From: Ramlibacter algicola
GTDB lineage: Bacteria > Pseudomonadota > Gammaproteobacteria > Burkholderiales > Burkholderiaceae_C
DNA length: 64,000 nt
Assembly (NCBI RefSeq): GCF_016641735.1
Contig: NZ_JAEDAO010000001.1
Location: 1,302,001 to 1,366,000 of the forward strand
Direction: 5' to 3'
The notes beneath the pieces are model-generated. The model was not told where the DNA came from, did not search any database, and saw nothing but the letters and a program-made list of their open reading frames with translations. How positions within the stretch are numbered: position 1 is the stretch's first letter; every line of letters starts with the position of its first letter. Shown piece after piece: positions 2,079 to 10,777 of the stretch. Position numbers and translations under genes: made by a program.

Positions 2079-3644
2079 TCAGCTCATCACGCCGACCTGC
2101 CAGGGCACGAACTCGTGGTCGCCCAGGCCGAGCAGCTCGCTCTTGGAGCGCTCGCCCGACGCAGTGCGCAGGAACAGCTCGAAGATGCGCTGGCCCATCT
2201 CCTGCAGCGTGGCGGTGCCGTCGAGGATCTCGCCGCAGTTGATGTCCATGTCCTCCTCGAGGCGGCTGAACATCGGCGTGTTGGTCGCCAGCTTGATGCA
2301 AGGCGCCGGCTTGGAGCCGAACATCGAGCCGCGGCCGGTGGTGAACGCGATCAGGTTCGCGCCGCCGGCGATCTGCCCCGTGGCCGACACCGGGTCGAAG
2401 CCGGGCGTGTCCATGAACACGAAGCCCTTGGTGGTCACCGGCTCGGCGTAGCGGTACACGGCCATCAGCGGACCCGTGCCGCCCTTCATCGACGACCCGA
2501 GTGACTTCTCGAAGATGTTGGCCAGGCCGCCCATCTGGTTGCCGGGGCTCACCTTGCCGTTGATCTGCACGTCGCGGCCGACGGAGTACTCCTCCTTCCA
2601 CCAGCGGATGCGCTCGACCAGCTTCTCGCCGACCTCGCGGCTGGCAGCGCGGCGCGTGAGCGTGTGCTCGACACCGTAGATCTCGGGCGTCTCCGACAGG
2701 ATGCCGGTGCCGCCGTGGCGCGCGAGGATGTCGACAGCCGCGCCCAGCGCCGGGTTGGCGGTGATGGACGAGAAGCCATCGGAGCCACCGCACTGCAGGC
2801 CGACGGTCAGGTGGCTGGCCGACACGGTCTGGCGGCGCACCTTGTTCGCTTCGGGCAGCAGCGCCTTGACGGCTTCGACGCCTGCTTCGATGGTCTTGCG
2901 CGTGCCGCCCGTTTCCTGCATCACGAAGGTGTGCAGGTTGGGGCCGGCTTCCAGGCCCTGTTCTTCCATCAGGCCGCGCAGCTGGTTGCGCTCGCAGCCC
3001 AGGCCGATGACGAGCGCACCCGCCAGGTTGGGATGGCGCGCGTAGCCGGCCATCGTCCGGCGCAGCATCTGCATCGGCTCGCCGGTCATCTCCATGCCGC
3101 AGCCGATGCCGTGCGCGAAGGCGACGACACCGTCCACGTTCGGGTACTCGGCCAGCCGCTCGGGCGTGAACCACTCGGCGATCTTCTTGACCACCGTCGC
3201 CGAGCAGTTGACCGTCGCCAGGATGCCGATGAAGTTGCGCGTGCCCACGCGGCCGTCCGGGCGCACGTAGCCCTGGAAGGTGGCGCGCTCGTGCTCGGGC
3301 AGCAGCTGCACCGGCTTGTACTGGCTGGCGTGCGCGTAGTCGCGGTCGAACTCGCGGAACTCGGTGTTGTGGCTGTGGACCATCGTGCCGGGCTCGATGT
3401 CCGCGTTCGCGAAGCCGACGGTGACCGCGTACTTCAGGATCGGTTCGCCCTTGCGGATCGCGCGGGCGGCGATCTTGTAGCCGGCGGGCACCTGGCTGCG
3501 GGTGGTGAATCCTTCACTGTCCACGCGCAGGCCGATCGGCACGTCGACGCGCGCGACGACCACGTTGTCGTCGGCATGCAGGCGGATCACCGGCCCCTTC
3601 ATCAGCTTCACGGGCGGCGCTTCGGCGACGGCGGTGGTGTTCAT
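2079..3644 (-). CDS. UxaA/GarD-family sugar-acid dehydratase
   Basis: The 521-residue protein is of the altronate/galactarate dehydratase family, enzymes that remove water from hexonates or aldarates to give 2-keto-3-deoxy acids. The N-terminal SAF-type domain (about residues 13-100) is followed by a linker and the long catalytic region; family-like blocks are RVGTRNF, AHGIGCGM, GLGCERNQ, QCGGSDGFS and MDINCGEI. Length matches E. coli GarD (523) and UxaA (495). Downstream and probably co-transcribed genes are absent; upstream on the same strand, 38 bases away, is an Ldh-type dehydrogenase, suggesting a two-gene catabolic operon. Which acid is used cannot be read from the sequence. Confidence 0.88.
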   Translation of the reverse strand: MNTTAVAEAPPVKLMKGPVIRLHADDNVVVARVDVPIGLRVDSEGFTTRSQVPAGYKIAARAIRKGEPILKYAVTVGFANADIEPGTMVHSHNTEFREFDRDYAHASQYKPVQLLPEHERATFQGYVRPDGRVGTRNFIGILATVNCSATVVKKIAEWFTPERLAEYPNVDGVVAFAHGIGCGMEMTGEPMQMLRRTMAGYARHPNLAGALVIGLGCERNQLRGLMEEQGLEAGPNLHTFVMQETGGTRKTIEAGVEAVKALLPEANKVRRQTVSASHLTVGLQCGGSDGFSSITANPALGAAVDILARHGGTGILSETPEIYGVEHTLTRRAASREVGEKLVERIRWWKEEYSVGRDVQINGKVSPGNQMGGLANIFEKSLGSSMKGGTGPLMAVYRYAEPVTTKGFVFMDTPGFDPVSATGQIAGGANLIAFTTGRGSMFGSKPAPCIKLATNTPMFSRLEEDMDINCGEILDGTATLQEMGQRIFELFLRTASGERSKSELLGLGDHEFVPWQVGVMS

Positions 3645-3682
3645 TCGGCTTCGACTCCTGGTTCCTCGACGATGGGGCCGGC

Positions 3683-4747
3683 TCAGCGCGTCGCCGGCAA
3701 CGTGACGCCGGCGCGCTGCGCCCACGGGGCCAGCGCGTCCAGCACGGGCGCGGCAATCTCGACGCCCTGCGCGCGCTGCGCCGCCAGCAACTGCTGCGCG
3801 CGCTCGCCCGGCAGCCGCACCGGCGCGCCGTCGCGCACCGGCGGGTTCGCGCGGCACTGCTGCGCGATCCAGTCCATCTGCTCGCGCAGCGCGTCCTCGC
3901 CGTTGAAGAAGGCGGGGTCGAGCACCTGCACGAACACGGTGGCGCCCCAGCGCGCGCCGGGGTCCGAGCGGCCCTGGCCGGCGAGGCCCGCCGTGAACGC
4001 TTCCACCATCAGCGACAGCCCGTAGCCCTTGTGGCCGGTGTCGGTGCCACCGAGCGGCAGGATGGTGCCGGTGCGTGGCGCGACCAGCACCGCCGGGTCG
4101 TCGGTGGGCGCGCCGTGCTCGTCGATCAGCCAGGCGCCGGGCAGCTTGCGGCCTTCGCGCGCGAGCCGGCCGGTGAGCCCGTTGGTGGTGATGGACGTCG
4201 ACACGTCGACCAGCACGGGCGCGCCGGTGGTCGGGATGCCGACGCCGATCGGGCTGGGCGAGAAGAGCGCCTTGGTGCCGCCGAACGGGGCGACGCTGCC
4301 GCCCGCGGGTGCCGAGGACATCAGCTGGAGCAGCAGGCCTTGTTCGGCGACCCGGCGCGCATACGGGGCGAGGGCGGCGATGTGGTGGCTGCGGCGGATG
4401 TTCACGATGCCCGTGCCGTGGGTCCGGGCGGAGCGCGTTGCGACGTCGATCGCGCGCAGCGTGAGCCACGGCCCCGGTAGCCGCTTGCCGTCCCAGGCCT
4501 GCACCACGCCGGCATCCGCCAGCACGTCCGGTTCGCCGGTGGCGGTCATGCGCCCGGCCTCCAGTTCGGCGAGGTACGTGGGCAGCAACTGCAGGCCGTG
4601 GGTGTCGTGGCCCAGGAGGTCGCCTTCGACGAGGACGCTGCCGACGGCGCCGGCCTTGTCGTCGTCGAGCCCGGCGTGGCGCAGGAGGAGGGTGGCGAAG
4701 CGTTCGAGCTCGGTCGCGTCGAATCGCGCGGGGCTGGCGGTCGTCAT
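3683..4747 (-). CDS. Ldh-family (malate/L-lactate-type) NAD(P)-dependent dehydrogenase
   Basis: The 354-residue protein belongs to the LDH2/MDH2 oxidoreductase family (YlbC, YbiC, ComC relatives), distinct from classical Rossmann malate dehydrogenases. Visible family blocks are GHDTHGLQLLP near residue 47, RRSHHIAALAPYA in the first half, GGTKALFSPSPIGVGIPT in the middle and GHKGYGLSLMVE. The start at MTTASP is preferred over an upstream in-frame ATG that adds 22 low-complexity residues. It is the first gene of a likely operon with the sugar-acid dehydratase, so its substrate is probably a related 2-hydroxy or 2-keto acid; that is inference from context. Confidence 0.87.
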   Translation of the reverse strand: MTTASPARFDATELERFATLLLRHAGLDDDKAGAVGSVLVEGDLLGHDTHGLQLLPTYLAELEAGRMTATGEPDVLADAGVVQAWDGKRLPGPWLTLRAIDVATRSARTHGTGIVNIRRSHHIAALAPYARRVAEQGLLLQLMSSAPAGGSVAPFGGTKALFSPSPIGVGIPTTGAPVLVDVSTSITTNGLTGRLAREGRKLPGAWLIDEHGAPTDDPAVLVAPRTGTILPLGGTDTGHKGYGLSLMVEAFTAGLAGQGRSDPGARWGATVFVQVLDPAFFNGEDALREQMDWIAQQCRANPPVRDGAPVRLPGERAQQLLAAQRAQGVEIAAPVLDALAPWAQRAGVTLPATR

Positions 4748-4781
4748 CGGGACACCGGCCGTGCGGGCGCCGGGGGGGCGC

Positions 4782-5183
4782 TCAATGCAGCGGCGCCTCG
4801 TCGTCCCGGCCAAGGACGTGTTCCAGCATGTGGGTGAGCGCCGCGGGGTCGACCGGCCGCACGAAGTAGGCGGCGGCGCCAGCGGCCAGGCCGGCGGCGC
4901 GGGACGGTTCCTCGACGTACACGGCGGACACGTGCACCACCGGCACGTTGGGCTCGCGCTCGCGGATCAGGCGGCAGACCTCGAAGCCATGCACGTCGGG
5001 CAGGTGCACGTCGAGCACGACGGCCGACACGTAGCCGGCGAGTTCCAGTGCCTGGGCGCCGGAGCGGGCTTCCACCGTACGAAAGCCGGCAGTGCGCAAT
5101 GCATGGCTGATGGCATAGCGGCCGGCGTCGTTGTCGTCGACGACGAGGACACTGTGGTTGGCGCGCCATTGCATCCGGCCCAT
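4782..5183 (-). CDS. Single-domain response regulator, atypical (Lys replaced by Arg)
   Basis: The 133-residue protein is one receiver domain with no output domain. Acidic pair DD (16-17), phospho-acceptor Asp58 in VVLDVHLPD and Ser at 86 are present, but the conserved lysine that closes the active site is Arg109 (YFVRPVDP). The domain is strikingly close to the N-terminal receiver of the hybrid kinase at 8792, sharing the VSAVVLDVHLPD and GFRT segments, so the two are paralogues. It is divergent from the rsb operon. It likely acts as a phosphate sink or protein-binding switch for the neighbouring kinases. Two ATGs (5183, 5174) are possible and neither has a strong ribosome site. Confidence 0.85.
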   Translation of the reverse strand: MGRMQWRANHSVLVVDDNDAGRYAISHALRTAGFRTVEARSGAQALELAGYVSAVVLDVHLPDVHGFEVCRLIREREPNVPVVHVSAVYVEEPSRAAGLAAGAAAYFVRPVDPAALTHMLEHVLGRDDEAPLH

Positions 5184-5206
5184 TATGGGGGCGGCTGGAC
5201 CGAACG

Positions 5207-5221
5207 CGACCGGTCCGGTCG
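5207..5221. promoter_or_regulatory. Dyad in the divergent response-regulator/rsbR promoter region
   Basis: CGACCG-GTC-CGGTCG is a perfect 6-3-6 dyad placed between the divergent starts. It could be an operator shared by both units. No clear -35/-10 pair was found in this 121-base gap. Confidence 0.35.
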
Positions 5222-5304
5222 AGTTTGTCGGCACCGTCCTACAGACGGCCTCATCCGCGGCACGAAGAATCGATCCTTTCGTCCGAAAAAAGAGGAGAGA
5301 GGCT

Positions 5305-6177
5305 ATGGCCCGAGAGAACGAGGCACTGGCGGCCCTGCTGGCGCAGGCGAGCGACCAGGTGATGAAAGACTGGCTGCAACAGGCCGGCGCGCAATCGGGC
5401 GGCAGCCTGCAATCCATGCAATCCGAAGCCGGGGAGCTCTTGCGCGCGGTGCGCTCGGGGCTGCAGGCCGGCGGATCGACCGAATCCCTGGACGGCCCCG
5501 CCTGGGCCGACCTCCGCGGCGCGCTCGAGGCGCTGTCCCGCTCGCGCGTGGCGCAGGGCCAGACGGCCGGCGACACCAGCGCGTTCGTGCTGGCGTTCAA
5601 GCGCCCGCTCTTCATGGGCATGCAGCGCGTGCATGCCAACGACCCGCAGCTGGCGATGGCCGCGATGTGGTCGTCGTCCCTGCTCGTGGACAACATGGCG
5701 CAGTGGACGGTGACGACCTACCAGCGCACGCGCGAGGAGATCATCCGCCGCCAGCAGCAGGAACTGCTGGAGCTGTCCACCCCGGTGATCAAGCTGTGGG
5801 ACGGCGTGCTCGCCGTGCCGATGATCGGCACGCTCGATTCGCAGCGCACCCAGCTCGTGATGGAAGCGCTGCTGGAGCGCATCGTCGAGACCGGCGCCGA
5901 GCTGGCCATCATCGACATCACCGGCGTGCCGACCGTCGACACCCTGGTCGCGCAGCACCTGCTCAAGACCGTCAGCGCCATCCGCCTGATGGGCGCCGAA
6001 TGCATCATCAGCGGCATCCGGCCGCAGATCGCGCAGACCATCGTGCACCTGGGCATCGACCTGCAGGGCATCGCGTCCAAGTCGAGCCTGGCCGACGCGC
6101 TGGCGATGGCGCTGGCGCAGACCGGCTACCGCATCACGCGCGACGGCGTCACTGAACGCAGGGCGCTCGCCAGCTGA
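5305..6177 (+). CDS. rsbR: RsbR-type stressosome scaffold/sensor protein (STAS)
   Basis: The 290-residue protein has a variable N-terminal sensor region (about 1-145), the typical linker ELSTPVIKLWDGVLAVPMIG (157-175), and a C-terminal STAS domain (about 165-280). In the STAS domain, Thr213 in TGVPTVDT matches the threonine phosphorylated by RsbT in B. subtilis RsbRA; a second acceptor region reads LDSQR with Ser179. No haem or PAS motif is obvious in the sensor region. AGAGGAGAG precedes the ATG. It is the first gene of a six-gene overlapping series, ending in TGATG shared with rsbS. With RsbS it should form the large stressosome core. The signal sensed is unknown. Confidence 0.93.
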   Translation: MARENEALAALLAQASDQVMKDWLQQAGAQSGGSLQSMQSEAGELLRAVRSGLQAGGSTESLDGPAWADLRGALEALSRSRVAQGQTAGDTSAFVLAFKRPLFMGMQRVHANDPQLAMAAMWSSSLLVDNMAQWTVTTYQRTREEIIRRQQQELLELSTPVIKLWDGVLAVPMIGTLDSQRTQLVMEALLERIVETGAELAIIDITGVPTVDTLVAQHLLKTVSAIRLMGAECIISGIRPQIAQTIVHLGIDLQGIASKSSLADALAMALAQTGYRITRDGVTERRALAS

Positions 6178-6551
6178 TGAACAAAATCCCGATCCTCCGC
6201 ATGGGGGACACCCTCCTGGTGACGATCCAGGTGGACATGGAAGACCAGACGGCGCTCGCGCTGCAGGACGACCTGGCCGCCAAGATCTCCACCACCGGCG
6301 CGCACGGCGTGCTGATCGACATCTCCGCGCTGGAAATCGTCGACTCGTTCGTCGGCCGCATGCTGGCCGGCATCTCGGGCATCGCCCGCATCCTGGACGC
6401 CACCACCGTCGTCGTCGGCATGCAGCCAGCGGTGGCGATCACGCTGGTGGAGCTCGGCCTCTCCCTGGAAGGCGTGCGCACCGCGCTCGACGTCGAGCGC
6501 GGCATGGCCCTGCTGGCCAAGGCGCGCCGGGAGCGTGTCCTTGGCCGCTGA
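6177..6551 (+). CDS. rsbS: RsbS-type stressosome STAS protein
   Basis: The 124-residue single STAS domain is the length expected of RsbS, the second core component of the stressosome and the antagonist that holds RsbT. The key serine is present as Ser57 in EIVDSFVGRM, equivalent to the B. subtilis phosphorylation site Ser59. The start overlaps the rsbR stop by one base, so translation is probably coupled. Phosphorylation of this serine by RsbT would release RsbT to act downstream. Confidence 0.93.
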   Translation: MNKIPILRMGDTLLVTIQVDMEDQTALALQDDLAAKISTTGAHGVLIDISALEIVDSFVGRMLAGISGIARILDATTVVVGMQPAVAITLVELGLSLEGVRTALDVERGMALLAKARRERVLGR

Positions 6552-6945
6552 ACCCAACGGCGAACTGCCGCTGCGCACCGAGGCGGACATCGTCGCCAGC
6601 CGGCAGGTGGTGCGCCAGCTCACCGTGGCGCTGAAGTTCTCCCTGGTCGACCAGACCAAGATGATCACGGCGGCCAGCGAGCTGTCGCGCAACACCGTCG
6701 TGCACGGTGGCGGCGGGCGCATGCGCTGGGCCACCATCGAGGACGGCCTGCGGCGCGGCCTGCGGCTGGACTTCGAGGACGAAGGGCCCGGCATCGCCGA
6801 CGTCAACCTGGCGCTCACCGACGGCTGGACCTCCGGCGGCGGCATGGGCCTGGGGCTGCCGGGCAGCAAGCGTCTCGTGCACGAGTTCAGCCTGCGCTCG
6901 GAACCGGGCAAGGGCACGTGCGTGACCATCACCCGATGGAAGTGA
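6535..6945 (+). CDS. rsbT: RsbT-type serine/threonine switch kinase
   Basis: The 136-residue GHKL-fold kinase resembles RsbT and anti-sigma kinases. N-box residues are Glu49 and Asn53 in ASELSRNTVVHG, the G1 box is DEGPGI (82-87) and a glycine-rich lid GGGMGLGLPG spans 101-110. The GTG start overlaps the end of rsbS by 17 bases, a strong sign of coupled translation. RsbT phosphorylates RsbR and RsbS and, once free, activates a partner protein. In B. subtilis that partner is the phosphatase RsbU feeding sigma B; no RsbU or sigma factor is seen here, so the output must differ. Confidence 0.93.
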   Translation: MSLAAEPNGELPLRTEADIVASRQVVRQLTVALKFSLVDQTKMITAASELSRNTVVHGGGGRMRWATIEDGLRRGLRLDFEDEGPGIADVNLALTDGWTSGGGMGLGLPGSKRLVHEFSLRSEPGKGTCVTITRWK

Positions 6946-7946
6946 TCCGCAGCTCGCACCATTCGGCGTTCCCGATGGAGGACATCTCGCGGGTCGGCGA
7001 AGCGCGCCGGCACGCGGTCACGCTGGCCATGCGGGCCGGCTTCGACGAGGTCAAGACGGGCCAGCTGGCCATCGTGGTCACGGAGCTCGGCACCAACCTC
7101 ATCCGCCACGCGCAGCGCGGCACGCTGCTGCTGGCCGTGCGCGAGCAGGCCGGCGAAGTGGAGGCGATCTCCATCGACCACGGCCCCGGGATGGCCGACA
7201 TCGCGCGCAGCATGGGCGACGGCTTTTCGACCGGTGGGTCGCTGGGTGCCGGCCTCGGCACCGTGCGCCGCATGGCGCGCGACTTCGACCTGCATTCGTC
7301 CGTGCCGGGCGGCACGGTCATCGTGGCACGCCTGGCGCGCGAGGCTGGCCCCAAGGCGGCGGGAGCGCTCGAAGTCGGCGCCGTCTCGGTTCCCAAGACC
7401 GGCGAGCTGGTGTGCGGCGACGCCTGGGCCGCGGCGATGGCCGACCCTTCCGCCACGTTGGCGGTGGTCGACGGCCTGGGCCATGGCTTCGACGCGGCCG
7501 AAGCGTCGGCTGCCGCCATCGACGTGTTCGCGGCCGAGGCGGCGCGCGACGTGACGCAGATGCTGGAGAAGATGCACCTCCGCCTGCGCAGCACGCGCGG
7601 CGCGGCGGTGACGCTGCTGCGCGCCGATGCGTCCACGTCGCGCCTGCGCTCGTGCGGCGCGGGCAACGTGTCGGTGCGCGTGGTGTCCGGTGCCTACGAC
7701 CGCAGCATGCTGATGCAGCACGGCACCGCCGGGCTGCAGATGCGCCGGCCCGAACCGATCGAGCAGGACTGGCCGCAGCACGCGATGATCATCGTGCACT
7801 CCGACGGCATCGGCACGCGCTGGGCGCCGGAGGTGGTGCTGCCGGTGCTCGGGCGCGACCCGACGCTCGCCGCGGCGCTGCTGTTCCGCGACCACTCGCG
7901 CGGCCGCGACGACGCGACCGTCGCCGTCCTGCGGCGCAGAATGTGA
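6936..7946 (+). CDS. GHKL kinase-like plus PP2C phosphatase fusion (RsbX-like)
   Basis: The 336-residue protein has two domains. Residues about 10-135 are a second GHKL ATPase (N-box Glu50 and Asn54 in TELGTNLIRHA, G1 box DHGPGM at 81, lid FSTGGSLGAGLG 97-108). Residues about 145-336 are a PP2C/SpoIIE-type phosphatase with metal-binding candidates Asp162, Asp179 (VDGLGHG), Asp290 (HSDGIG) and Asp325/326. The phosphatase half resembles RsbX, which resets the stressosome by dephosphorylating RsbS and RsbR. ATG 6936 is chosen over a GTG 18 bases earlier; it overlaps the rsbT stop by ten bases. Fusion of a kinase-like and a phosphatase domain makes it a candidate two-way switch. Confidence 0.9.
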   Translation: MEVIRSSHHSAFPMEDISRVGEARRHAVTLAMRAGFDEVKTGQLAIVVTELGTNLIRHAQRGTLLLAVREQAGEVEAISIDHGPGMADIARSMGDGFSTGGSLGAGLGTVRRMARDFDLHSSVPGGTVIVARLAREAGPKAAGALEVGAVSVPKTGELVCGDAWAAAMADPSATLAVVDGLGHGFDAAEASAAAIDVFAAEAARDVTQMLEKMHLRLRSTRGAAVTLLRADASTSRLRSCGAGNVSVRVVSGAYDRSMLMQHGTAGLQMRRPEPIEQDWPQHAMIIVHSDGIGTRWAPEVVLPVLGRDPTLAAALLFRDHSRGRDDATVAVLRRRM

Positions 7947-7949
7947 GCC

Positions 7950-8795
7950 ATGGCCGACCTTGACGCCGAAGCACTGCGCCAGCAGCTGGAGTCGCTGCAG
8001 GCCGAACTCGACGAGACCAACCGCGGCGTCGTGGCGCTGTACGCGGAACTCGACGCCCAGGCCGAGCAGTTGCGCCAGGCCACCGAGCTCAAGAGCCGGT
8101 TCCTGGCCTACATGAGCCACGAGTTCCGCACGCCCATCAGCTCGATCCGCAGCCTCACGCGGCTGCTGCTGGACCGCGTCGACGGGCCGCTGACCAGCGA
8201 GCAGGAGAAGCAGGTCCTGTTCATCCAGCAGCAGGCCACCGAGTTCGCCGAAATGGTGGACGACCTGCTGGACCTGGCCAAGGTGGAGGCCGGCCGAGTC
8301 GAGATCTCGCCGGCGTGGTTCGAGATGGTCGACCTGTTCTCGGCCCTGCGCGGCATGTTCAAGCCGGTGCTGACGAACCCGGACGTGAACCTCGTGTTCG
8401 AGGAACCCGGGGACGTGCCCAAGCTGTACACCGACGACCGCAAGCTGTCGCAGGTGCTGCGCAACTTCATCTCCAACGCGCTGAAGTTCACGCACAAGGG
8501 CGAGGTGCGCGTGGCGGTGCGCCGCCACGGTGAGGGGCACGTCACCTTCAGCGTCACGGACACCGGCATCGGCATCGCGCCGGAGTACCAGCCCACGCTG
8601 TTCGAGGACTTCACGCAGGTCAACTCGCCGATGCAGAAGAAGCTGCGCGGCACCGGCCTGGGCCTGTCGTTGAGCAAGAAGCTGGCGGAGCTGCTGGGCG
8701 GCACCGTCAGCCTGGAGAGCGAGCCCGGCCACGGGTCGACGTTCAGCGTCACGATTCCTGCCGTCCTGCAAGGAGCCGCACCGCCGCCGCCATGA
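7950..8795 (+). CDS. Soluble histidine kinase of the rsb operon
   Basis: The 281-residue kinase has no membrane segment. An N-terminal coiled coil (about 5-50) leads to the phosphorylated His57 in MSHEFRTP, followed by the dimerisation helices and an ATPase domain with N-box (Asn172, Asn176), G1 DTGIGI (204) and G2 GTGLGLS (234). There is no sensor domain, so its input probably comes by contact with a partner such as RsbT or the fusion protein. It begins three bases after the previous stop and overlaps the next gene by four bases. Confidence 0.93.
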   Translation: MADLDAEALRQQLESLQAELDETNRGVVALYAELDAQAEQLRQATELKSRFLAYMSHEFRTPISSIRSLTRLLLDRVDGPLTSEQEKQVLFIQQQATEFAEMVDDLLDLAKVEAGRVEISPAWFEMVDLFSALRGMFKPVLTNPDVNLVFEEPGDVPKLYTDDRKLSQVLRNFISNALKFTHKGEVRVAVRRHGEGHVTFSVTDTGIGIAPEYQPTLFEDFTQVNSPMQKKLRGTGLGLSLSKKLAELLGGTVSLESEPGHGSTFSVTIPAVLQGAAPPPP

Positions 8796-10777
8796 TCGAC
8801 GCGAAGGTGATCGCCGCGTCGATCGACCGCTCCGCGCACGAAGTGCTGGTGGTCGACGACAACCCCGCCACGCGCTACACCACCACGCGCGTGCTCGCCT
8901 CCGCCGGCTTCCGCACGCGCGAGGCGCAGAGCGGCGCCGGTGCGCTCGAGGAAGCCCAGCGCGGCGTCTCCGCCGTGGTGCTCGACGTGCACCTGCCCGA
9001 CATGAGCGGGTTCGACGTCTGCCGCGAGTTGCGCGCCAACCCGCTGACCAGCGCGCTGCCGGTGGTCCATCTCTCCGCCGAGTTCACGCGCAACGAGGAC
9101 CGCGTTGCGGGCCTCGAAGCCGGCGCCGATGCGTACCTGGTGCACCCGGTCGAGCCGGCCATCCTCGTGGCCACCTTGCAAGCGCTGGTGCGCGCACGGG
9201 TGGCGGAAGAAGGCCTGCGCCGCAGCGAGTCACGCCTGCGCGCCATCTACGACAACGCGCCGGTGGGCATCGCGGTGCTCGACACCGACGGGCACGTGCA
9301 GGACGCGAACCCCGCGATGCTGCAGTTGCTGGCCTGCCGCGCCGGCGACCTGATCGGGCACGCGCTGGCCGATCGCGCGCCGGCGGAGTGGCGCGACGAA
9401 GCGCAGCGCGAGATGACCGGCCACTCGGCGCAGCGCGGGGCGTGGGAAGGTCGCTTCCCGCTGCGGCGTGGCGACGGCGAGTCCATCCTGCTGGACTGGA
9501 CGATGTCGGCCCACGTCGAACCGGGCTTGCGCATCGCGATCGCTGCCGACGCCTCGGAACGGGAGCAGCTCGAGGAGCGCCGGCGCGACCTGCTCGAGCG
9601 TGAACAGGCGGCGCGGGCCGTGGCCGAGCGCCACAGCCGCACCAAGGACGATTTCATCGCGGTGCTGTCGCACGAGCTGCGCACGCCGCTGAACGCGATC
9701 ATCGGCTGGGTCGCCATCCTCATGCGCCGCCAGCCCACCCCCGAAGCCCAGCGCGGCCTGGAGGCGATCGAGCGCAACGTGAAGGCGCAGGCGCGCATCA
9801 TCTCGGACATCCTGGACGTCTCGCGCATCAACTCCGGGAAGATGACGCTCGAGCGCGAGGAGGTCGACCCGGTGGACATCGTGTCTTCCGCGCTCGGCTC
9901 GCTGCGCCAGAGCATCGACGAGAAGCAGCTGCAGCTGAACGTCGACATCGACGACGGTTGGGGGCCGGCGTGGCTGGACTCGGCGCGCTACCAGCAGATC
10001 CTTTGGAACCTGATGACCAACGCCATCAAGTTCTCGCATCGCGGCGGCGCCATCGACGTCACGCTGCGCCGCGACGACGGGCTGCTGCGGCTGCAGGTGC
10101 GCGACTACGGCCAGGGCATCCGCGCCGAATTCCTCGAGCGGCTGTTCGACCGCTTCTCGCAGGCGCAGTCGCCGGGCAGCCGCGTTCACAGCGGCCTGGG
10201 CCTGGGCCTGTCGATCGTGCGCCAGCTGGCGGAACTGCACGGCGGCACGGTGGCGGCGGCGAGCGCAGGCCCGGGCCACGGAACGACGTTCACCGTCGAC
10301 ATCCCGGTCACGGTGCCGCGCGCGGAGGACGATCGCGCCGGCGTCGCCAGCGCGCCGGCGCCGCTCGCGGGCGACGAGCGCCCGCTGGAGGGCCTGACCG
10401 TGCTCGTCGTCGAGGACGATGCCGATGCCAGCGAGATGCTGTCGGTGGTGCTGGCGGACCGCGGCGCCAGCGTGCGCCTGGCCGGTGATTTCGAGAGCGC
10501 CGTGCAGTCGGCCCGCGCGGCCTGGCCCGATGTCCTCGTCAGCGACATCGGCCTGCCGCAGCGAGACGGCTACGACCTGTTGCGCGAGCTGCGGCAGATG
10601 CAGGTGTCGGTCGGCCGGGCGCCGCTGCCGGCTGTCGCCCTGACGGCCTTCGCGCGGCCCGAGGACCGTGAGCGCGCGCTCGAGGCCGGCTTCCACCAGC
10701 ACCTGGCCAAGCCGCTGAACCCGCACGCGCTGGTCGTCGCCATCGCCGAGGCCGTGCAGGCTGCGCGCGGCGGCTAG
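8792..10777 (+). CDS. Hybrid histidine kinase REC-PAS-HisKA-HATPase-REC
   Basis: The 661-residue soluble hybrid kinase is built in order: receiver 1 (about 15-135, Asp65), PAS (about 145-255), short coiled coil, HisKA with His294 (LSHELRTPLN), ATPase (G1 at 438, G2 at 468), and receiver 2 (about 534-655, Asp585, Lys640). Receiver 1 has His118 where the conserved lysine should be and closely resembles the divergent single-domain regulator at 4782. Receiver 2 is canonical. This architecture suggests a phosphorelay that can take phosphate from a partner kinase and pass it on. No DNA-binding or cyclase output is present in the operon. Its stop overlaps the convergent gene by four bases (CTAG). 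Confidence 0.93.
   Translation: MIDAKVIAASIDRSAHEVLVVDDNPATRYTTTRVLASAGFRTREAQSGAGALEEAQRGVSAVVLDVHLPDMSGFDVCRELRANPLTSALPVVHLSAEFTRNEDRVAGLEAGADAYLVHPVEPAILVATLQALVRARVAEEGLRRSESRLRAIYDNAPVGIAVLDTDGHVQDANPAMLQLLACRAGDLIGHALADRAPAEWRDEAQREMTGHSAQRGAWEGRFPLRRGDGESILLDWTMSAHVEPGLRIAIAADASEREQLEERRRDLLEREQAARAVAERHSRTKDDFIAVLSHELRTPLNAIIGWVAILMRRQPTPEAQRGLEAIERNVKAQARIISDILDVSRINSGKMTLEREEVDPVDIVSSALGSLRQSIDEKQLQLNVDIDDGWGPAWLDSARYQQILWNLMTNAIKFSHRGGAIDVTLRRDDGLLRLQVRDYGQGIRAEFLERLFDRFSQAQSPGSRVHSGLGLGLSIVRQLAELHGGTVAAASAGPGHGTTFTVDIPVTVPRAEDDRAGVASAPAPLAGDERPLEGLTVLVVEDDADASEMLSVVLADRGASVRLAGDFESAVQSARAAWPDVLVSDIGLPQRDGYDLLRELRQMQVSVGRAPLPAVALTAFARPEDRERALEAGFHQHLAKPLNPHALVVAIAEAVQAARGG

Follow-up and report, generated by a model that had tools for sequence, protein, structure and literature searches.

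A stressosome module of Ramlibacter algicola with a putative histidine-kinase output and a conserved coil as the candidate target of RsbT

The closest described relatives of the locus analysed here, a run of six genes (rsbR, rsbS, rsbT, TX, HK1 and HHK; Table 1) in a 64,000-nucleotide stretch of the Ramlibacter algicola genome (contig NZ_JAEDAO010000001.1, positions 1,302,001 to 1,366,000; hereafter the window), are the RsbRST-RsbU-SigB systems of Bacillus subtilis and Listeria. It shares with them RsbR, RsbS and RsbT with their phosphosites and GHKL motifs, as well as an RsbX-like PP2C, and differs in the RsbRD_N N-terminal domain, in the fusion of the RsbX-like part to a GHKL domain (in TX) and in the predicted kinase output. 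Stressosome loci have several kinds of output, and Heinz et al. (2022, PMC9237108) list HisKA/REC phosphorelays as one of them. The Gram-negative RSTX modules of that paper, with two-component or c-di-GMP outputs, resemble the window in that RST-X is directly followed by HisKA/REC proteins; they have, however, a globin RsbR, a single-domain RsbX and, in some cases, outputs with RsbU_N, whereas in the window RsbR carries RsbRD_N, TX is a fusion and HK1 has the coil only. The mention, in the first-pass annotation of the window, of RST modules with two-component partners in Gram-negatives such as Vibrio is thus right and, if anything, understated. A third comparison is with histidine kinases that bear RsbU_N and with the model of Baral et al. 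(2025, PMC12143880), in which RsbT is likewise proposed to control a dimeric effector via a coiled-coil linker; in contrast, HK1 has no RsbU_N, and no recognisable homology links its coil to those RsbU-type linkers that were tested.

The general idea of a stressosome acting on histidine kinases is already in print, and the signal output of SigB-less stressosomes is an open question raised in the Vibrio papers. In the literature searched, including passages of PMC4976288, PMC9237108, PMC10014275, PMC12143880, PMC6848086, PMC12189002 and PMC8115616, we found no description of RsbT-like GHKL/kinase fusions, of the coil discussed below as a constant element or of output swaps behind it. The GHKL-coil-kinase fusions, the constancy of the coil and the output swaps appear to be new.

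The six genes include those of an RsbRST module, with STAS proteins carrying phosphorylatable Thr/Ser and a GHKL kinase of RsbT type. We propose, giving the idea about an even chance on the strength of the sequence comparisons, that it is a stressosome switch with a histidine-kinase output, in which freed RsbT would switch HK1 via its coil and the PP2C of TX would reset the system. As in the known biology of the family, RsbR and RsbS would hold RsbT, which under stress would phosphorylate both and be released. Free RsbT, we infer, would then bind the coil ahead of the HisKA domain of HK1 and order or twist it, switching HK1 in the way RsbT acts with the RsbU linker. HK1 has no receiver domain, and therefore HHK, the product of the next gene, is the likely next step, to which HK1 would pass the signal; the phosphorelay would end elsewhere in the genome. 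The genome has nine Hpt matches, and a short frame (133 aa, C1:1447028) encodes an Hpt candidate. The PP2C half of TX would dephosphorylate RsbR and RsbS. If this is true, serine/threonine partner switching and two-component phosphorelay are joined within one protein family. The hand-over would then take place at a short stretch of HK1, behind which the output is swapped in nature, so that a few point mutants (e.g., in Deinococcus radiodurans or Variovorax) could test the proposal. Besides gene content, the observations that count in its favour are near-constant synteny, fusions of RsbT-like domains to kinases, conservation of the coil and swaps of the output behind it.

As to synteny, 80 related loci were picked by RsbS similarity in species genomes (the best 80 of at least 530, uneven by genus; handles beginning with L denote loci). 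All six genes were matched in 71 of the 80, among them L034, which is degraded, and L011, whose HK1 is split over two frames. A contig border cuts off eight of the other nine; the ninth, L037, has no kinases and is a second copy in a metagenome-assembled genome that also has a complete copy, L041. Drift of the kinases away from rsbRST, which the first-pass annotation had named as evidence against its proposal, is therefore not what these loci display. In the order sample (200 Burkholderiales genomes) RsbS was found in six genomes (E<=1e-12) and HK1 in five (E<=1e-70), all five HK1 matches lying beside RsbS; in the phylum sample (398 genomes) RsbS was found in 24 and HK1 in 16 (E<=1e-62), with 15 of the 16 HK1 matches 1.4-2.1 kb from RsbS and the sixteenth (G532, 45% identity) in a genome without an RsbS match. 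The HK1 searches scored at most 12 (order) or six (phylum) candidates per genome. Hypergeometric P values of this co-occurrence, about 2e-9 and 4e-20, respectively, are not true probabilities because the genomes are related. The kinases are near-constant partners of this RST class, which supports the first-pass annotation. Nine RsbS of the phylum sample lack such an HK1: in two (L106, L107) the kinase core is swapped, and the other seven are distant (33-50% identity) with other genes downstream, including RsbU_N kinases (L119, L120) and a PAS-PAS-GGDEF-EAL protein (L118). The distant L115 has an RsbT-like domain on a HisKA_2 kinase, and L122, a distant locus of the order sample, has an RsbU_N kinase as well. 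Loci L082-L105 (about 3 kb each) were omitted from the domain tables.

The coil of HK1 is as conserved as the catalytic parts behind it, the mean share of the commonest residue being 0.774 in the coil, 0.749 in DHp and 0.714 in the ATPase domain (82 sequences; L034, L011 and L043, in the last of which the motif pattern was not found, are excluded, and all three have the coil by profile). In 37 of loci L001-L044, mostly Burkholderiales, the HK1 coil reaches 0.856, and the HHK linker that matches it only 0.71. Residues E19, N24 and A29, which lie outside the assigned a/d positions, are invariant (82/82). When 396 genomes were queried with the coil alone, every one of the 15 strong matches (E<=5.1e-14) fell within such a module, as did a single one (G345) of the ten weaker matches (E 3.8e-9 and above). 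Among 10,722 open frames of 112 loci, the coil profile found 92 proteins in 92 loci, always encoded by the gene after TX; 81 of these loci had supplied the profile sequences and 11 had not. The output domain behind the coil varies: the coil precedes an HDFNN-type kinase core in L106 and L107, another low-scoring HisKA core in L130 and, on Streptomyces plasmids, SpoIIE in L131 and GAF-SpoIIE in L134 (Pfam); in L135, also a Streptomyces plasmid, the coil is present by profile and the domains lay outside the Pfam scan. The coil match in the L118 PAS-PAS-GGDEF-EAL protein was dropped as weak (11.9 bits among eight chosen sequences, and not reported in the 112-locus search).

The fifth gene also occurs in a long form, which has an RsbT-like GHKL domain, the coil and HisKA-HATPase and often ends in one or two receivers. 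This form is seen in cyanobacteria, alphaproteobacteria, gemmatimonads, Deinococcus and some gamma- and betaproteobacteria; across the HK1 family, the longer proteins come from five phyla. HK1 of the window is a short form, in which the coil is kept and the N-terminal RsbT-like domain is absent. The coil motif lies 23-49 residues after the stop of TX in short forms and 167-215 residues after it in long ones, while the spacing from coil motif to His is 34 in every row with both; the one exception is L046 (52), which has a repeated coil. The census of 96 readable loci counts 61 with coil-kinase, 26 with fused domain-coil-kinase (the domain being decayed in four), three with coil-phosphatase, four with a fused domain and no recognised coil, and two others. 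It starts from 101 tabulated loci, less L053 and L133 (contig or record ends), L011 (split), L034 (degraded) and L037 (no gene 5), and combines the table, motif rows and coil profile, with 13 loci reassigned where HHK had been taken as gene 5; the table covers loci with GHKL and PP2C in one frame, so that L116, L117, L119, L120 and L122 (free PP2C) stand outside it. The fused domains as a group are nearer to RsbT than to the GHKL of TX (hhalign E 1.8e-39 versus 1.2e-20). In five of 31 copies (L046, L112, L128, L129, L131) the fused domain lacks the N-box, G1 and G2 motifs and the coil is still kept; in Nocardioides and Embleya the domain is likewise present and decayed. In the unrooted HK1 tree (82 sequences) a branch with 99/99 support separates the 60 short forms from all others. 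The simpler reading is that the window lineage probably lost the RsbT-like domain and kept the coil. RsbT residues separating short- from long-form loci, considered as a further clue, amounted to eight positions and were uninformative.

These data allow a broader reading, which we advance tentatively: the RsbT-responsive coil, often together with an RsbT-like domain that could dock the effector on the RsbR/RsbS shell, may be a portable output adaptor that precedes varied kinase cores, SpoIIE and perhaps cyclic di-GMP enzymes, in which case the stressosome would have histidine kinases as direct clients in no fewer than five phyla.

An Asp of RsbT contacts the RsbU linker (Baral et al., 2025, PMC12143880). 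RsbT of the window is 38% identical to that of Listeria, and its D96 aligns with Listeria D92. This Asp is kept in 98 of 105 RsbT-class domains, while Gly takes its place in 20 of 23 fused domains (fused-domain matches below 60 bits are left out of the count); free RsbT is therefore favoured as the partner of the coil, and the fused domain perhaps has another task, docking on the STAS shell. Several points weigh against a switch of HK1 by RsbT through the coil. The GHKL of TX keeps the Asp in 92 of 92 cases and is by this test an equally good candidate for coil partner, which slightly lowers the odds of the portable adaptor. R25 of the coil is Gln in 24 of 82 sequences while D96 of RsbT is unchanged. 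The coil profile matched neither the Listeria RsbU linker nor the linkers of RsbU_N kinases (at most 2.4 bits). Heinz et al. (2022, PMC9237108) state that their attempts to obtain a positive interaction result between the Vibrio RsbT and VvD1, a kinase encoded downstream, failed. The four loci with a fused domain and no recognised coil do not fit either, and loss of the domain rather than its gain is only the simpler reading of an unrooted tree. A likeness of TNRGV in HK1 to the RsbU linker (T89, L90, R91, G92, Q94; PMC12143880) was set aside as only a weak lead, because the Listeria linker reads SLRTEQ and gets 1.5 bits from the coil profile (best stretch 0.2), and because of the R25 substitutions.

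The first-pass annotation suggested that RsbT or the fusion protein TX may hand the signal directly to a phosphorelay; the former route gains from the RsbT-like/kinase fusions and the conserved coil of HK1, while the latter fares less well, the PP2C of TX being RsbX-like. It is unlikely, in our view, that TX is the transmitter, with its GHKL half binding the coil and RsbT being only the kinase of RsbR and RsbS. The TX gene does adjoin HK1 and its GHKL does keep the linker-contact Asp, but the PP2C half is nearest to solved RsbX-type phosphatases, namely PDB 3zt9 (titled SpoIIE) and RsbX 3w40, the kinase-fused GHKL domains are closer to RsbT, and some distant modules (L117, L119) have, in place of TX, a free PP2C together with a further free RsbT. 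The 3zt9 protein is a stressosome phosphatase of Moorella. TX does not have the single PP2C domain of the RsbX type, its N-terminal GHKL domain being extra; because its PP2C half is RsbX-like, we predict that it is probably a feedback phosphatase.

That RsbT would phosphorylate HK1 (or HHK) at Ser/Thr during a transient contact and not bind the coil stably seems to us improbable. Heinz et al. (2022, PMC9237108) proposed this for downstream kinases without RsbU_N, and it would fit their negative interaction test; however, it leaves unexplained both the conservation of the coil off its core and its retention across output domains. Also improbable is that the kinases are co-inherited neighbours acting upstream of the stressosome or parallel to it: in favour of this, HHK has a PAS domain of its own, but the fusions with RsbT-like domains and the tight co-occurrence speak against mere neighbours. 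Because of this PAS domain (about aa 148-245), the annotation of both kinases as sensorless holds for HK1 only. In line with the absence of RsbU noted in the first pass, RsbU_N (PF08673) was not found in the genome at E 0.1 (of 14 control genomes only B. subtilis matched), nor by Pfam on HK1 or HHK. SigB was not found in the operon, which alone was inspected, no search for sigma-B having been made.

Table 1. Coordinates of the module and of the neighbouring receiver in the window
Feature	Position	Strand	Domains and remarks
rsbR	5305-6177	+	RsbRD_N (sensor domain) + STAS (Pfam); phosphosite positions T213 and S179
rsbS	6177-6551	+	STAS (Pfam); S57 aligns with Ser of solved RsbS chains
rsbT	6535-6945	+	GTG start; HATPase_c (Pfam); GHKL switch kinase
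TX	6936-7946	+	HATPase_c_2 + SpoIIE (Pfam); GHKL (RsbT/RsbW type) fused to RsbX-like PP2C
HK1	7950-8795	+	HisKA + HATPase_c (Pfam); coil-HisKA-HATPase short form
coil of HK1, aa 15-46	7992-8087	+	proposed RsbT target
HHK	8792-10777	+	REC1-PAS-HisKA-HATPase-REC2 hybrid kinase (Pfam)
lone receiver	4782-5174	-	receiver domain (Pfam), divergent from the six-gene run

Recomputed positions, overlaps and gap of the six-gene run, and the place of the divergent receiver, are as first annotated: rsbR and rsbS overlap by one base, rsbS and rsbT by 17, rsbT and TX by 10 (TX ATG at 6936) and HK1 and HHK by four, with a 3-base gap between TX and HK1. The key residues annotated as intact are so, and near-invariant among the window and relatives with usable sequence: T213 (80/80) and S179 (79/80) of RsbR, S57 of RsbS (81/81), N53 of the RsbT N-box (79/79) and every acidic residue checked in the PP2C of TX (75/75). 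The ATP motifs of RsbT are intact, as a GHKL kinase of this type requires.

The first receiver of HHK (REC1, 8840-9211) is atypical, with His in place of the conserved receiver Lys in 57 of 70 sequences and Lys in one; REC2 keeps the Lys in 66 of 68 (L011, L033 and L034 are excluded from the HHK alignment). The lone receiver is 57% identical to REC1 and is perhaps its local duplicate. We rejected it as a part of the module, contrary to its listing in the first pass, as it is not conserved across related loci: an upstream minus-strand receiver of any kind occurs in 9 of 79, several of them inside large kinases, and the lone receiver is the best query for a single open frame (L078, 32% identity). 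The kinase that ranks second in the genome (C1:1293436-1294269, 43% identity) was likewise rejected as a second HK1: it belongs to a multi-domain hybrid kinase of 1162 residues that lacks the coil motif.

Some single loci deserve mention. L034 and L037 are second copies, in a genome or metagenome-assembled genome, with degraded or lost kinases and RST-TX kept. In the distant L117 and L119 the PP2C is free and two free RsbT genes stand in tandem, an arrangement that may predate the TX fusion. L126, on plasmid MP1 of Deinococcus radiodurans (3060-8864), is a module of the same kind, annotated only as STAS, anti-sigma and ATP-binding proteins.

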